Assembly (NCBI GenBank): GCA_004292515.1
Contig: RDXB01000074.1
Span: forward strand, 1-64,000
DNA: 64,000 nucleotides
Direction: 5' to 3'
From: Oscillatoriales cyanobacterium
GTDB taxonomy: Bacteria > Cyanobacteriota > Cyanobacteriia > CACIAM-69d
The notes under the pieces were generated by a model that worked only from the letters and a program-made list of their open reading frames with translations, was not told where the DNA came from and did not search any database. The position numbers and the translations under genes are program-made. Of the stretch, positions 29,828 through 39,737 are shown piece by piece (the first letter of the stretch is position 1; each line of letters opens with the position of its first letter).

Positions 29828-32800
29828 TCAGTGGGTGTCGCCGATCAGGGTGAAGGCAGCCCAGTCGATCGGGTCGGGGTATTGCTGCATCGTCGCCAAG
29901 GTCGCCTGCCGCAGGGCCGCTGCCTTGTCGAGACCTTGCCCCAAGAACTCGTAAAACCGCGTCATCAGGGCCGCCGTGGGCGCATCGGGCACGGCCCATT
30001 GGGTGACGATCGCACTCGGGGCCCCGGCCGCCAGCAGCGATCGTGACAGACCCACAATCCCATCCCCCGACAAAGCACCCTGGCCCGTGTTGCAAGCACT
30101 CAGCACCACCAACTGGGCGTTCAAATCCAAATTCAGCAACTCCCGCGCCGTCAGCCAGCCGTCGTTCCCGTCACTGCCGGGAGCCAGGGCGATCGCACTG
30201 TCTAGCCCCCGTTTCGAGTCCAACAGCCCGTGAGTCGCCAGGTGGATCACGCTGGCTTGCTGAATCCGATCGAGCACCGCCGCCTTAGTCGCCGCATCCC
30301 CCGTCAAGGGTTGCGTATTCAGCATTTGGGCCACGGCCACCGCCTCCGCCTCCGCGTTGGGCAAGGGGGCCAGTTGCGATCGCGTATTGTTGCTGCGGCG
30401 ACTGGGCAACACCGGCATCGTTGGGTTGCCCACAATCAAGGGACGATCGCCCAGCTTCACCCCCCGATCGCGCAACTGTTGGGCCTGTTGGGTGGTGCGA
30501 TCGAGCACTTGAATCGACGGAGCCGTGGCCAGGCTGTAGCGCTCAATCAGGTAACGACCTTGGGCATCTTGCAGCGCCGAAAAGGGCACGAGAAACAAAT
30601 CCTGCTGGGGCATGACAATCAGTTGGTCGCCCTCCCGAGTGGGCAGCAAATCGGCGATCGGGGTGATTAACAGGTCATGCAGTTGCCGCAACCCCGGAAC
30701 CACCGATCGCACCAAGTCCGTACCGACTTCGCCCGATCGATTCGCCTGCCGCGCGCTCAAAAACACCCGCAACAACGGCAACTGATCTTTCAAAAACTGG
30801 TAGTTAGGCAGGTTCACTCGCCGGAACTGCACCGACCCCGAAGGCTGCACCACCCAAATATTCACGCCCAAATCCGTCAGTTGGCGCTGACCATCGATGT
30901 CCATCACCTCCCGCTCGATCGAATAAGACACGAGGGTGGCTGACTGTGCCCGGGCCACTTGCCGGATTCGATCGATGTCGATCGGTTCCACAGGGTTGGT
31001 GGCCGGCTTGGCTCCTCCTCCCGCCTGGGGGCGATCGCGCCAGTTGCTCTCTTCCGCCAGCAGTTTCAAGAGCGCTTGCGATCGGCTGCGTTCATTAATT
31101 TCCAGGGCAAGTTCTGGCTGTTGAGCCGCCAGCAACACGGTCTGCAAGGTGCTGTAGGTAGTTTCCTGGGTTTCAAAAATCGCCAGCCTAGCCCCGTCGT
31201 TGGTCAGGTTTTCCCGCAAGCGCTCCCAAGCGGCGATCGCCTGTTGCAAGTGGTCGATCGATTGGTCAAACTGCTTCAGTTGATATTGCGTATCTCCCAA
31301 GTTGCTCAGGACTCGGGCTTCTGCATGGCGATCGCCCAATTCCCGAGTCAGGGCCAGGGCCCGGGTTTGGGCCGCCGCCGCCGCCTGGTAATTTTCCCGG
31401 CCATACTCCACCAGCCCCAAGTTATCCAAAATGCGAGCGATCGCCCGGCGATCGTGCACTTGCTCTGCCAAAGTCAGCGCCTCCGTTTGGGCTGCCATGG
31501 CGGCGGTGTAGTCCGTGTTTTGATAATGCAGCAGACCCAATTGGGTCAGGGCCCGGGCCTGGGCACTGGGGTTTTGTTGCTGCTGGGCAATCACTAGGGC
31601 CTGTTCTTGATAGCGTTTGGCTTGGGCAAAGTCCTTTTGCTTAGACGCAATCAGCCCCAAGTTATTCAGCACCTGGCTTTCGAGGGCTGGCAGTTGGTGC
31701 GATCGCGCCAGTTTCAAAGCCCGCTGGTAATGCTCCGTGGATTCGGCAAATTGCCCCAACGCCCCATAAACATTCCCCAGCTCACTTTCGGCGATCGCCT
31801 CCAACACCGGCTGGTTGTGGCCCAGGGCCAATAACCGCGCTTCTTCGTAGGCTTTGAGTGCATCGCCATATTCCCCAGCTTGGTAGTGGATCTGACCGAG
31901 CTGATAAAGGGCCCGTTGCAGAGCCGGTCTGTCTTGATCGGCACGCGCCCAAGCAACCGCCTTGCGCTCACAGTCCAACCAATGATTGGGGTGACAAACT
32001 TCGATCGCCACCCCAGCCGCGATCACATTGGGCAGCGAACCCACCATTGGATCTAACATCCGATCCAGCATCTGATCAGTCCACGGCAACGCCCCACGCG
32101 CCGAGGCCTCGTCCGGCAAGCCAGTCCCTATTTTGTCCGACTCGATCGCCACCGATGCAACCGGCAACGACGGAGTCCACAGCCGTTCCAGGGTTTGACC
32201 CTCATCCCCCGCTGCCACCACCACACCCGCCATCCAATCCACCCGACTGCGGCCAAACCCCACCCCGCGACCGCCAACGCTTTCCCGGCCCAAACCCAGA
32301 GCCAATGGCTTCAGGGGACTGGTCGCCCGTTCCGCACTGAGGCTCAAGCTCCAGGGAGAAGAGGCCACCGGCAAGCTGACGGCTCGCCGAACAATTTCAA
32401 TCCCCGCCGAATTCCGCAAGGCCTGCAAATCTAGCACCTGGCCCGGATCGGCGATCGCCTGATCATCAAGCTGTGACCCGGCCGGTTTGGCATTCACCCA
32501 AGTTCCAGAATTAACCCCCGGAGTCACGAGATTCGTGGGCGATCCATTCCCTGAGCCGATCGACCCGGAGCCACCCGGCCGCAGCGAGCTTGGGTTCTGG
32601 CCACCGCTGATCGGAGTTGGCAAAGAGGGCACACCCACAACCTGAATCCCAGCACCAGCAGGATTTGGCGCGGAATTGACGGGAACGCCAGAACTGCTGC
32701 CAATCCCGCCCACGTCGGGCCGCCCAGGCAAAGCACCACTAGCACCATTCAAACCCGCTTGGCTGATGCCCGCCCGCTGCAAAATCGCCGACGAGTTCAC

Positions 32801-34891
32801 CCCAGAATTGAGCGCTGTTCCCAAATCGGGCGATCGGGGAATTGCACTGCCCGCCCCAGGATTAGCATTGGGAGCTGCTCCAGGCGCACTCCCCACAGAT
32901 GGCAGGTTGCCGGGATTGGTTGAATTGGGCAAGGCCGCTGCCCCTGTATTTGTTCCTGTGTTTATCCCTGTATTTGTCCCTGGATTAGTCCCGGTGGGCG
33001 CAGCAGCCAGACCCAGATCAATCAAGTCATTCACATTGGTTAGCCAGGGGGCCGACGAAGCGGGCTGCTTGACTGACCAAGCCGTTCCCGGTGCAGCGGG
33101 AGCAGTGAATGCACCCAAGCCACCCGTGTTATTTATCCCTGGATTATTGGTGGTTGGATTATTGGTGGTTGGATTGAGGGTGAGCGTTGTGGTGCTGGCG
33201 ATCGCTGGCAGCGACAAAGACTCGTCATCCTGCTCACTGGTCGTGGTGATGCCGCTAGAACCAGTCAGGTTGACCGTATTCAACGGCGTGGTGCTGAATG
33301 AGGTCGATGGGCTGGCATTCGTTGCGCCACTGGTCGGCTGAATGGGGGTGACCGGAATCAGAACAGGAGCCAGATTAGGCGTGGCACTAGTCAGCGTGGG
33401 TTGACCGGTTAGGCTGGTAATTGCGGTTGTGGTGCTCACCGAAGTGGGCGTAATGGTCACAGTGGGCGTAATGGTCGGCGTAATGGTTGGCGTGACGGTC
33501 GGGGCTGGGGACGGAGACGGTGGAATTAAAACTAGGCGGTTGTTGCGAACCGGAGTTTGACTAAAACTCAGAGTTGTGGCGTTGTTGGTTTGGCTGAGGG
33601 CGGGTTGATAGGTGCTGCGAAAGGCGGCGGGGCCACCGGTGGGTGTCGTCAAAAACAGTTGACCGCCGGTTTGCAAGGGCATATCCCCGGCGATCGCCCC
33701 GGAGCTGACCACAAACAGGTTGCCCTGACTGCTGAGGCGACTGGCAGGATCATGCAAGCTATACAAATCCACAGCCCGATCGCCCCACAGGGTCAACTGT
33801 CCGCCGGCCGTCGCCTGCAAAGGCCGGCCCGGCGCATCCCGGCCGATCGCCCCATTCCCCGCCAGCAAGTGGAGATCGCCCGTGGTTTGCAACTGGCTGG
33901 CTAACAAAATCAAGTGATTGACCGCCGACAGGGTGGCCGTGCCCGCTTGGGCCGACTGCACCGCCAGATCGCCCGGTTGCAACGTCCCCTGGGAATGGCT
34001 AATCGACACGCTGCCATTGGGATTGACCGTCAGGCCGTTGGCCGTCACCGGCTGACCCGCCAGCAACTCAGGAATCGATCGCGGCCAAATTGGCCCGATC
34101 GCCCCGGTTCCCGACTCCAGGCCCGACCGCCCCGCGATCGGCAAATCGATCGCCAACACCGACCCCGCCGGGGTGAACCGCACGTGGCGATCGCCCGGCA
34201 CTGCCGCCACCGTCAGTCGCCCACCGGGGGCCACCAGCTCCCCCAGACTGACCACCGAGCCACCCACCAGGCTGAGGCTCTGGCCCGACGGCACAGCCAA
34301 CAGTCCTTGATTCAGAATCCCCGCCGGTTGACTCAGCGCAAAACTCAGTCCACTCGGGTCGCCCCACAAGTTGGCATAGTCATTAACCCCAGCCAGATTG
34401 AGCCAGCGATCGCCCCCATCTCCAAAGCTCACGCCCGTTGCCGTGGTTGCCGTAAACGCGGCCGGCACATTCAAGCGCGCCTCGGGGCCAAACACAATCC
34501 CCGCCGGGTTGATCAAAAATAGATTCGGACTGCCACCCACCACCTGAATCAGGCCGTTAATTTGGGACGGGTCGCCGCCCACCACCTGACCCAGAATGTT
34601 GCGTAGATCCGGCGTGGCTAAAAAATTAGCAATTTCGTTGGCATTCAGGTTAAACCGCTGAAAGCTGTGAAAGAGATTAGACCCATCACTCGATCGACTG
34701 CCGCCGCCAATCTCGATTCGGTTGCCCTCGATCGTCACCCGCGTGCCCGTGCCGTCGGGTGCTGGGGCGATCGACTCAGCCTGGGCGATCGATCCCATCA
34801 GCAGCCACCATGTCGCCACTCCCCAACCCAATGACCAAGGCGATCGGCCCGCTGGAGTTCGCTTCCGTCTCAGCAGTTCACTCGGTTTCAT
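29828..34891 (-). CDS. Giant two-partner-secretion exoprotein with TPR repeats and C-terminal CHAT protease
   Basis: About 1687 residues from the ATG at 34891; a GTG 11 codons upstream is also open and residue numbers here count from it. A signal peptide (WGVATWWLLMGSIAQA) leads into a haemagglutination-activity/TPS domain (about 50-330) with FHSFQRFNLNANEIANFL and SPNLFLINPAGIVFGPEARLNV. A Thr/Pro/Asn/Gly low-complexity linker (about 460-850) includes PTITPT and NTGINTGTNTG runs. TPR repeats span about 990-1240. The CHAT domain (about 1330-1698) has the caspase-like dyad in HLATHG (His1565) and LSACNTG (Cys1611). It is predicted to be exported through an Omp85-type TpsB pore; no TpsB gene is in the window. 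Substrate unknown. Confidence 0.88.
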   Translation of the reverse strand: MKPSELLRRKRTPAGRSPWSLGWGVATWWLLMGSIAQAESIAPAPDGTGTRVTIEGNRIEIGGGSRSSDGSNLFHSFQRFNLNANEIANFLATPDLRNILGQVVGGDPSQINGLIQVVGGSPNLFLINPAGIVFGPEARLNVPAAFTATTATGVSFGDGGDRWLNLAGVNDYANLWGDPSGLSFALSQPAGILNQGLLAVPSGQSLSLVGGSVVSLGELVAPGGRLTVAAVPGDRHVRFTPAGSVLAIDLPIAGRSGLESGTGAIGPIWPRSIPELLAGQPVTANGLTVNPNGSVSISHSQGTLQPGDLAVQSAQAGTATLSAVNHLILLASQLQTTGDLHLLAGNGAIGRDAPGRPLQATAGGQLTLWGDRAVDLYSLHDPASRLSSQGNLFVVSSGAIAGDMPLQTGGQLFLTTPTGGPAAFRSTYQPALSQTNNATTLSFSQTPVRNNRLVLIPPSPSPAPTVTPTITPTITPTVTITPTSVSTTTAITSLTGQPTLTSATPNLAPVLIPVTPIQPTSGATNASPSTSFSTTPLNTVNLTGSSGITTTSEQDDESLSLPAIASTTTLTLNPTTNNPTTNNPGINNTGGLGAFTAPAAPGTAWSVKQPASSAPWLTNVNDLIDLGLAAAPTGTNPGTNTGINTGTNTGAAALPNSTNPGNLPSVGSAPGAAPNANPGAGSAIPRSPDLGTALNSGVNSSAILQRAGISQAGLNGASGALPGRPDVGGIGSSSGVPVNSAPNPAGAGIQVVGVPSLPTPISGGQNPSSLRPGGSGSIGSGNGSPTNLVTPGVNSGTWVNAKPAGSQLDDQAIADPGQVLDLQALRNSAGIEIVRRAVSLPVASSPWSLSLSAERATSPLKPLALGLGRESVGGRGVGFGRSRVDWMAGVVVAAGDEGQTLERLWTPSLPVASVAIESDKIGTGLPDEASARGALPWTDQMLDRMLDPMVGSLPNVIAAGVAIEVCHPNHWLDCERKAVAWARADQDRPALQRALYQLGQIHYQAGEYGDALKAYEEARLLALGHNQPVLEAIAESELGNVYGALGQFAESTEHYQRALKLARSHQLPALESQVLNNLGLIASKQKDFAQAKRYQEQALVIAQQQQNPSAQARALTQLGLLHYQNTDYTAAMAAQTEALTLAEQVHDRRAIARILDNLGLVEYGRENYQAAAAAQTRALALTRELGDRHAEARVLSNLGDTQYQLKQFDQSIDHLQQAIAAWERLRENLTNDGARLAIFETQETTYSTLQTVLLAAQQPELALEINERSRSQALLKLLAEESNWRDRPQAGGGAKPATNPVEPIDIDRIRQVARAQSATLVSYSIEREVMDIDGQRQLTDLGVNIWVVQPSGSVQFRRVNLPNYQFLKDQLPLLRVFLSARQANRSGEVGTDLVRSVVPGLRQLHDLLITPIADLLPTREGDQLIVMPQQDLFLVPFSALQDAQGRYLIERYSLATAPSIQVLDRTTQQAQQLRDRGVKLGDRPLIVGNPTMPVLPSRRSNNTRSQLAPLPNAEAEAVAVAQMLNTQPLTGDAATKAAVLDRIQQASVIHLATHGLLDSKRGLDSAIALAPGSDGNDGWLTARELLNLDLNAQLVVLSACNTGQGALSGDGIVGLSRSLLAAGAPSAIVTQWAVPDAPTAALMTRFYEFLGQGLDKAAALRQATLATMQQYPDPIDWAAFTLIGDTH

Positions 34892-35281
34892 GGTCAGCAG
34901 CATGGTGCAGATCATCTTCTTCACTGAGCAGGTTTCGAGCCAATCCTTTGTCCAAATGCCCCCAATTTAGAGACACCCTCGATCGCCACCCTATAATCAC
35001 CACCCTGACCCCACCGCCAGCCAAGATGATCGCCACCGGTCGCTATACATGGTAGCCAGCGACGGTCGCCAAAAACGGTAGCCAGTGATAGTCACCACCC
35101 AGGTTACGACTGATCTAGCGATCGCCGCCCCGCTCCATAACCATCAGCATCCCGCATCAGGGCGATCGTCCACCCATGAGCCATCGGCCCTTGCGCGATC
35201 GATACCATCCCCCATTTCATGTCCATCCCCCATTTCATGTCCATCCCCTATTTCCCATCCATCACCCCCAACCATCGATCA
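34892..35281. other. 390-base divergent region with tandem repeats
   Basis: Between the CHAT exoprotein and sulfotransferase genes. CATCCCCCATTTCATGTC is repeated at 35206-35223 and 35224-35241 with a third partial copy to 35254. An imperfect 20-base duplication beginning GGTAGCCAG lies near 35050-35100. No additional gene is seen; the in-frame extension of the sulfotransferase frame through the repeats is not counted. Confidence 0.6.
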
Positions 35282-38591: not shown

Positions 38592-39737
38592 CTACGGCCG
38601 GAGCTGGGGCGATCGTCCTGGCGGACTTGGCATCGGCTGGCGAAAATCGATCGACAGTCTTACCCGATCCATCAGTGCGGGAACGTAGCCATAGAAGCGA
38701 TCGTGGCGGAGTTGGATTGCGTCGATCGAGCAACTGCCGCAATGCATCCCCTCGGGCGGCACGGCCACCTGATGCACTACCTGATCTGACACACCCACCC
38801 AGGGCAGGTGGCCCACCGGAGCCTGGAGCGAATAGGTCAACTCCGACTCGTTGCGCCAATCGCTGCTGATGAAGTCCACCTCCGGCCGAGGCGCAGGGAT
38901 TTTCCAACCCACAAGATCGCGGAAGGCATTCACCGCCGCTTCCAGATTGTTGGGGTGCGCCGCCCGGGCCGCCCGCCAAAGCTGCCATTGGATACTCAGG
39001 CCAAACCGGCCGTTGCTGGCCGTTAGCCAGGCCCGATCTAGCTCGCGGATCACCTCCGGCCGCACGGAGACGGAACGCGCAGGCGGCATGAACACAGACT
39101 CGGGTGCTAGCAGCCGCCGGGTTTCGCGATCGGCGGCGGCCCAGTCTTGGGCTTGCAGGCGGTCTTGGATGAGGGCTAGTTGTTGCCGAATGGCTGCATC
39201 CTCGCTGCCCACTTCGATTTGGCAATTGCCTGGGGTCGATCGCACAAACTGGCCCGACCCCAAGTAGTGCAACACCTGGATCTGTTGAGGCTGACCCAAG
39301 GCAGGACGCAGGCTGATGTAGAGACCATTTAACGAAGCCGGTGCGGCATAGAGGCGATCGCCCTGGTTGGGCTGGCCGCGAAACTCGCTATCAAAAGGTA
39401 GTTTGGAAAAGTCCGCATCGGGAGCCAACTGGGCATAGTCCTGCAACAGCGACTCATCTAGCAGGACTTGGCTATTGCCCTGCCGGTTTTGCCACTGCAC
39501 AGTCAGGCGCAAGCTGGTGCCGATCGGGTTTTGAGGGACAGCCCCAGTGGTGGCTTGGGGCAAGCTCCCAGTGACACGATAGGTGAGGGTCGCGTCCTGG
39601 TTCGCCGATGCCACGGTTTGGCAAGTGACATACAGGGGGCGAGCTTGGGCTGCCCCGGGCAGACTCGGAATCGCGGCCAGGGCCCCGATCAAGGCAACAG
39701 CAAACGGCGATCGCATCGGTTGTGAAAACATAAGCAA
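38592..39737 (-). CDS. Exported protein with GUN4-like domain
   Basis: 381 residues. A signal peptide (SPFAVALIGALAAIPSLPGAAQA, start at Met1, 3 or 8) is followed by a beta-rich N-terminal domain (about 35-175, with a Cys pair at 39 and 172). A GUN4-type segment follows (about 190-315): LQAQDWAAADRETRRLL, LDRAWLTASNGRFGLSIQWQLW, FRDLVGWKI and LTYSLQAPVGHLPW match the order of the GUN4 core. GUN4 proteins bind porphyrins and stimulate Mg-chelatase in the cytosol or plastid. An exported version would sit in the periplasm or lumen, so its role is unclear. Confidence 0.75.
   Translation of the reverse strand: MLMFSQPMRSPFAVALIGALAAIPSLPGAAQARPLYVTCQTVASANQDATLTYRVTGSLPQATTGAVPQNPIGTSLRLTVQWQNRQGNSQVLLDESLLQDYAQLAPDADFSKLPFDSEFRGQPNQGDRLYAAPASLNGLYISLRPALGQPQQIQVLHYLGSGQFVRSTPGNCQIEVGSEDAAIRQQLALIQDRLQAQDWAAADRETRRLLAPESVFMPPARSVSVRPEVIRELDRAWLTASNGRFGLSIQWQLWRAARAAHPNNLEAAVNAFRDLVGWKIPAPRPEVDFISSDWRNESELTYSLQAPVGHLPWVGVSDQVVHQVAVPPEGMHCGSCSIDAIQLRHDRFYGYVPALMDRVRLSIDFRQPMPSPPGRSPQLRP

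Follow-up and report, generated by a model that had tools for sequence, protein, structure and literature searches.

The gene P0001 lies on the minus strand of the window (the whole stretch of DNA that was analysed, 64 kb in length) and joins a two-partner-secretion (TPS) domain, a long linker, TPRs and a CHAT domain in one protein. Its features are as follows:

29828–34891, minus strand: whole gene P0001, TPS–linker–TPR–CHAT, 1687 aa (open frame; orthologues).
34778–34891, minus strand: signal peptide, residues 1–38 (by eye and by a heuristic).
34160–34753, minus strand: TPS secretion domain, residues 47–244, with an NPAG motif and a predicted beta fold (Pfam PF05860, 2e-37; alignment; AlphaFold2 model).
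32042–33604, minus strand: low-complexity T/P/S/N/G-rich linker, about residues 430–950 (sequence composition; orthologue comparison).
31970–31996, minus strand: conserved pair Cys966/Cys974 (cysteine count; kept in L065 and L066).
31211–31990, minus strand: TPR array, about residues 968–1227, six to seven helix pairs (Pfam; AlphaFold2 model).
29837–30691, minus strand: CHAT caspase-like protease domain, residues 1401–1685 (Pfam PF12770, 2e-73; fold matches).
30230–30232, minus strand: predicted catalytic His1554 (HLATHG), invariant in 19/19 relatives.
30092–30094, minus strand: predicted catalytic Cys1600 (LSACNTG), invariant in 19/19 relatives.

The minus-strand frame runs through 1687 uninterrupted codons from the ATG at 34891 to the stop at 29828, and stops occur throughout the plus strand over 29828–34891; the single continuous reading frame of the original prediction, which gave no strand, is therefore real. 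A Pfam search of the protein returned the domains that had been named from the letters alone, i.e., TPS (PF05860), TPRs and CHAT (PF12770), and the AlphaFold2 model agrees with the expected number of about six TPRs. The catalytic dyad is intact, as had been claimed, and is numbered here from the ATG at 34891; the earlier numbering, His1565/Cys1611, was counted from a GTG at 34924, 33 bases upstream, and is replaced. The Thr/Pro/Asn/Gly linker is likewise present, T/P/S-rich first and G/A/P/N-rich after, with a length nearer 500 residues than the approximately 400 first given.

The predicted signal peptide, judged by eye, has an extended basic n-region with RRKR, then a hydrophobic core and a cleavage site between AQA and ES at residues 36–39. 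With a TPS domain directly behind this Sec signal, the N-terminus is that of a TpsA protein (Pfam; inspection and heuristic), as originally proposed. The C-terminal CHAT domain with its His/Cys dyad places P0001 among CHAT proteases (caspase-like, clan CD). Cys966 and Cys974 may form a disulfide. Scanning the locus for promoters and Rfam families gave nothing above chance on the gene's strand. A defence-system assignment was rejected, PADLOC having returned just a generic TPR match. Elsewhere in the window, positions 38595–39737 (minus strand) encode a GUN4-domain protein with a signal-peptide-like N-terminus.

The source assembly is a draft of 111 contigs, and a frameshift or assembly error joining two genes had been named as the finding that would overturn the prediction. 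Two congeneric genomes encode the full-length protein in a single frame, as orthologues of 1618 and 1607 aa, the TPR-CHAT part of P0001 being 68% identical in a congeneric orthologue. Identity to the first orthologue is 75% in the TPS domain, 60% in the TPRs and 80% in CHAT (dN/dS 0.21, 0.32 and 0.12, respectively); in the linker, identity drops to 37% and indels are numerous. By these sequence comparisons, purifying selection acts on either side of the join. The same TPS-TPR-CHAT order recurs in two other families, in G276 (1983 aa) and in G056, G029 and G043 (1329–1344 aa), and also in Argonema (3583 aa). Full-length orthologues, dN/dS values well below 1 over the whole protein and a domain order shared with distant genomes rule out the false join. 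That P0001 never leaves the cell, or that the fusion is an artefact of sequencing or assembly, is very improbable: the draft state of the genome and the lack of an adjacent TpsB gene speak for it, while the orthologues, the shared domain order, the dN/dS values and the near absence of non-catalytic cysteines all speak against it. Breaks in the assembly seem to fall at duplicated genes, since the left ends of its contigs C6 and C50 (L029, L023) begin inside near-identical CHAT frames (DATSIGDGGRIAVWADG...); these duplicates are possibly TPS-CHAT fusions cut at the contig end.

The TPS domain model (pLDDT 84.6) matched 21 PDB entries at E ≤ 0.001, and all 21 are TpsA secretion domains or proteins, including EtpA, HpmA, HMW1, HxuA and FHA. 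A TpsB gene usually adjoins its TpsA gene in TPS operons, which is a common rather than a defining feature. No TpsB gene was found near P0001 within the 64-kb window, in agreement with the original prediction, nor did one adjoin any fusion viewed in six genomes of its family; such adjacency was seen in Nostocales and other relatives. A search of the whole genome for the missing partner, proposed at the outset, found two complete TpsB genes, each with ShlB and POTRA_2 domains, on the distant contigs C91 and C46. Neither adjoins a TPS gene in the stretches read around them, and the genome contains six TPS-domain matches. Among 194 cyanobacterial genomes, TPS was detected in 147 and TpsB in 159, and by a hand count of the listed genomes only G022 and G158 had TPS without a TpsB match, a co-occurrence that takes no account of shared ancestry.

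Full-length P0001 used as a query against genome contigs found no relative; an alignment of the TPS domain as query did. Of the 80 cyanobacterial loci nearest to the P0001 TPS domain, a best-match rather than a random set, 57 encode TPS and CHAT as a single-frame fusion, and in a further 8 a CHAT frame stands next to the TPS frame. Judged from these sequences, the P0001 fusion is not isolated and TPS-CHAT fusions are widespread in cyanobacteria. In seven Nostocales fusions (L090, L091, L097, L098, L099, L107 and L151), TpsB lies divergently upstream on the opposite strand, and in L085 it lies downstream. Pfam confirms TPS and CHAT in the L090 fusion and ShlB and POTRA_2 in its TpsB; it also confirms L166, where an adhesin-like cadherin/Big domain stands between TPS and CHAT. 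In some Nostocales TPS-CHAT frames, roughly 240 residues from a family 2 glycosyltransferase come first, in frame ahead of a signal-peptide-like segment and the TPS domain (L090:2073-7112, with PF00535 at 2e-33, and L097:9071-14605); L091, L098 and L099 share this layout, judged by the position of the TPS domain. This is an odd topology, and an internal start is possible.

The association also holds when approached from TpsB. One TpsB gene per genome was taken from 40 genomes, hand-picked rather than drawn at random from the top-scoring TpsB list, and about 10 kb was read on each side. CHAT occurred in 14 of these 40 neighbourhoods and in 1 of 20 controls (Fisher p = 0.009); for TPS the figures were 18 of 40 and 1 of 20 (Fisher p = 0.001). 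The controls were arbitrary stretches of the same kind of genomes, and the one control that carried TPS itself adjoins a TpsB gene. The binomial probability of the CHAT count is 3e-8 against the CHAT density of the window's genome and 0.0014 against an assumed 15% per site. CHAT genes number 12 in that 4 Mb genome and 22 or more in many others. Three of the neighbourhoods hold TPS-CHAT fusions, and gene runs include TpsB-CHAT-TPS (L181), TpsB-TPS-CHAT (L163) and TPS-TpsB-CHAT with overlapping frames (L199).

The pairing extends to plasmids of Sphingomonadales. In Sphingomonas (L290), a frame with sub-threshold TpsB matches is followed by TPS and, 8 bases on, by CHAT; in Sphingobium (L289), the order is CHAT, CHASE2-cyclase, ShlB. 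The Sphingomonas parapaucimobilis genes (L290/L291) are flanked by type VI secretion genes, tssG and tssH on one side and tssK, tssL and tssM on the other. Genes for CHASE2 with a nucleotide cyclase stand next to TpsB or CHAT genes in cyanobacteria as well as in Sphingobium (L184:10598-12877 and L289:14630-16672), and genes for DUF1822 and DUF928 are among others in the vicinity (L021, L286).

A careful tree of 45 CHAT domains places that of P0001 in a mostly unfused TPR-CHAT lineage, the common TPS-CHAT fusions forming a separate one. Membership of P0001 in the widespread fusion lineage is rejected by this tree, and a single clade of all TPS-fused CHATs is rejected by the AU test (p = 0.0016); one origin for all TPS-TPR-CHAT fusions is not rejected (AU p = 0.124). 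On this phylogeny, the union of TPS with CHAT took place in two or more distinct CHAT lineages, and fusions that had swapped their CHAT ends would produce this tree as well. That this pair of domains was brought together repeatedly suggests that TPS and CHAT cooperate.

Cysteine content bears on the compartment in which they would do so. P0001 has only three cysteines in 1687 residues, the 966/974 pair and the catalytic one. The median cysteine content is 0.17% in the 57 fusions and 0.97% in other frames of the same loci, and exactly one cysteine was counted in 68/74 fused and 40/42 unfused CHAT domains. In a further set of 40 loci, the C-terminal 290 residues contain one cysteine in 39/39 frames classified as fused, signal-bearing or signal-less; one frame cut by a contig end, with three cysteines, stands outside this count. 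Signal-less distant CHATs from Streptomyces, Rhodococcus and Deinococcus have two to six cysteines in four of five cases, a small control. The pattern suits an oxidising compartment in which the catalytic cysteine is kept, and enzymes with a reactive cysteine may have other grounds for avoiding extra ones.

The original prediction had treated CHAT proteases as usually cytosolic. That premise fails in the cyanobacteria examined, most of whose unfused CHATs carry signal peptides: 24/30 frames with a complete N-terminus in the 40-locus set score as signal-bearing, with three more by eye, and 10 of the 11 unfused CHATs in the 40 TpsB neighbourhoods have a probable signal peptide. The heuristic fires on 34% of background frames, so inspection and cysteine content were used alongside it. 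The predicted export by two-partner secretion, by contrast, is strengthened by the genome's own TpsB genes, by TpsB beside relatives, by the cysteine pattern and by the matches of the TPS model; P0001 is very probably exported, to the surface or to the periplasm.

We hypothesize that P0001 is an exported TpsA-type protein with a built-in extracytoplasmic TPR-CHAT protease, most likely serving the maturation or release of secreted stalks, and give this reading a probability of roughly 0.55. The chain would cross the inner membrane by Sec, and its TPS domain would dock on an FhaC/ShlB-type TpsB pore, presumably that encoded on C91 or C46, which would then be shared by several dispersed TpsA genes. 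The flexible linker could then reach away from the pore, leaving the C-terminal TPR-CHAT part as a putative His/Cys protease outside the cytoplasm, whether outside the cell or in the periplasm. Its likeliest job would be to mature or release TpsA stalks, its own or neighbouring ones, in cis or in trans, with the TPRs binding or sensing a trigger or substrate. Maturation is favoured because CHAT occurs both inside TpsA and as an exported protein of its own, encoded next to TpsA. Several observations count against this reading: a TpsB gene adjoins neither P0001 nor the other fusions viewed in its family; no conserved cleavage site was seen in the linker when P0001 was compared with its orthologue, and the linker is poorly conserved; CHAT sits at the extreme C-terminus, whereas processing peptidases of polymorphic toxins usually stand directly before the released part (PMC3482391); and a folded TPR-CHAT might obstruct passage through TpsB.

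Caspase-like domains in exported proteins have been described both as processing peptidases and as toxins (PMC3482391), and CHAT might instead be cargo directed at other cells or at proteins outside the cell, in the manner of the effector end of a contact-dependent inhibition (CDI) protein. The C-terminal position of CHAT fits this, as C-terminal caspase-like domains can be toxins (PMC3482391), and so do the tandem paralogues in the family of P0001 (L068, L072) and the adhesin-like domain within L166. However, no immunity gene accompanies P0001, the next gene downstream being convergent on the other strand, and the CHAT end, far from being a variable cassette, is more strongly conserved than any other part of the protein; on these grounds a CDI or polymorphic toxin was rejected. 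The many unfused signal-bearing CHATs beside TpsA also suit maturation better than delivery, and we consider an effector role unlikely.

Equally doubtful, to our mind, is a signalling role in the envelope, with a periplasmic CHAT, the TPS stalk as a surface sensor, and contact or damage triggering cleavage of an envelope or anti-sigma target. DdvA, a CHAT-containing protein that the PDB describes as a transmembrane anti-sigma factor, is the top solved structural match over the whole TPR-CHAT part (8rot, 8rw5), CHASE2-cyclase sensor genes occur in TpsB/CHAT neighbourhoods (L184, L289), and unfused signal-bearing CHATs probably act in the periplasm. The fit to DdvA reaches only TM 0.52, however, and no sigma or anti-sigma gene was noticed beside P0001.

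Returning to maturation by an exported protease, a broader version has, we estimate, slightly less than an even chance: in cyanobacteria and some Sphingomonadales, an exported TPR-CHAT protease acting on or with TpsA would form a dedicated third component of two-partner secretion, encoded beside TpsA/TpsB or fused, the fusion having arisen independently at least twice.

Discussion of CHAT proteases centres on intracellular effectors of death or defence. Among the cyanobacteria examined, most CHATs lie in exported proteins and are tied to type Vb secretion by gene order and repeated fusion. If this is true, a large unexplained family of cyanobacterial CHATs gains a compartment and a partner, and whether CHAT cuts TpsA becomes a testable question. 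P0001 is a conserved protease-TpsA fusion, one of many, and a pointer to this wider coupling. In the literature searched, mostly open-access papers, no paper pairing 'CHAT domain' with 'two-partner secretion' was found, nor one joining 'CHAT domain', 'hemagglutinin' and 'cyanobacter', nor a published function for the pairing. An exoproteome paper on Anabaena 7120 mentions neither CHAT nor haemagglutinin. In proteomics of a Nostoc water extract, the peptide SLSLLGGTVV was assigned to a 'CHAT domain-containing protein' (PMC9895726). In alignment it looks like the GQSLSLVGGSVVS stretch within the TPS domain, a hint that this Nostoc protein could be a TPS-CHAT fusion, but only a single non-tryptic peptide is involved and the extract is no clean exoproteome.

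Among known systems, the TpsA exoproteins of type Vb secretion (FHA, HMW1, HxuA, HpmA and EtpA) share with P0001 the signal peptide, the N-terminal TPS domain with its NPxG motif, the predicted fold and the presence of TpsB in the genome. Their passenger is a long adhesin or cytolysin, whereas that of P0001 is a low-complexity linker with TPR-CHAT, and the P0001 gene lacks an adjoining TpsB. The AlphaFold2 model of residues 953–1687 (pLDDT 82.8, pTM 0.82) shows TPR helix pairs followed by a CHAT fold that resembles DdvA, Csx29/TPR-CHAT and separase. Csx29, the TPR-CHAT protein of the type III-E CRISPR Craspase, has the same TPR-CHAT order, His/Cys dyad and overall fold, at 11–13% identity in structural alignments; it partners a crRNA complex, whereas P0001 is predicted to be exported, and nothing CRISPR-like, neither Cas7-11/gRAMP nor Csx30, was noticed among the neighbouring genes. 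DdvA is 17% identical, and its description includes no TPS domain. HetF of Anabaena is likewise a cyanobacterial putative protease with CHAT and TPR, but its CHAT lies in the N-terminal 555 residues of a midcell membrane protein that has a transmembrane segment and no TPS domain (PMC8406250). The possible working analogues are the maturation pairs CdrA/LapG and FHA/SphB1, in which a TpsA protein is released by an extracytoplasmic protease (PMC5422565). Those proteases are unfused and belong to other families, and a 2017 review of two-partner secretion notes that maturation protease genes appear to be absent from TPS operons (PMC5422565), so a CHAT protease encoded beside or within TpsA would be a new layout.
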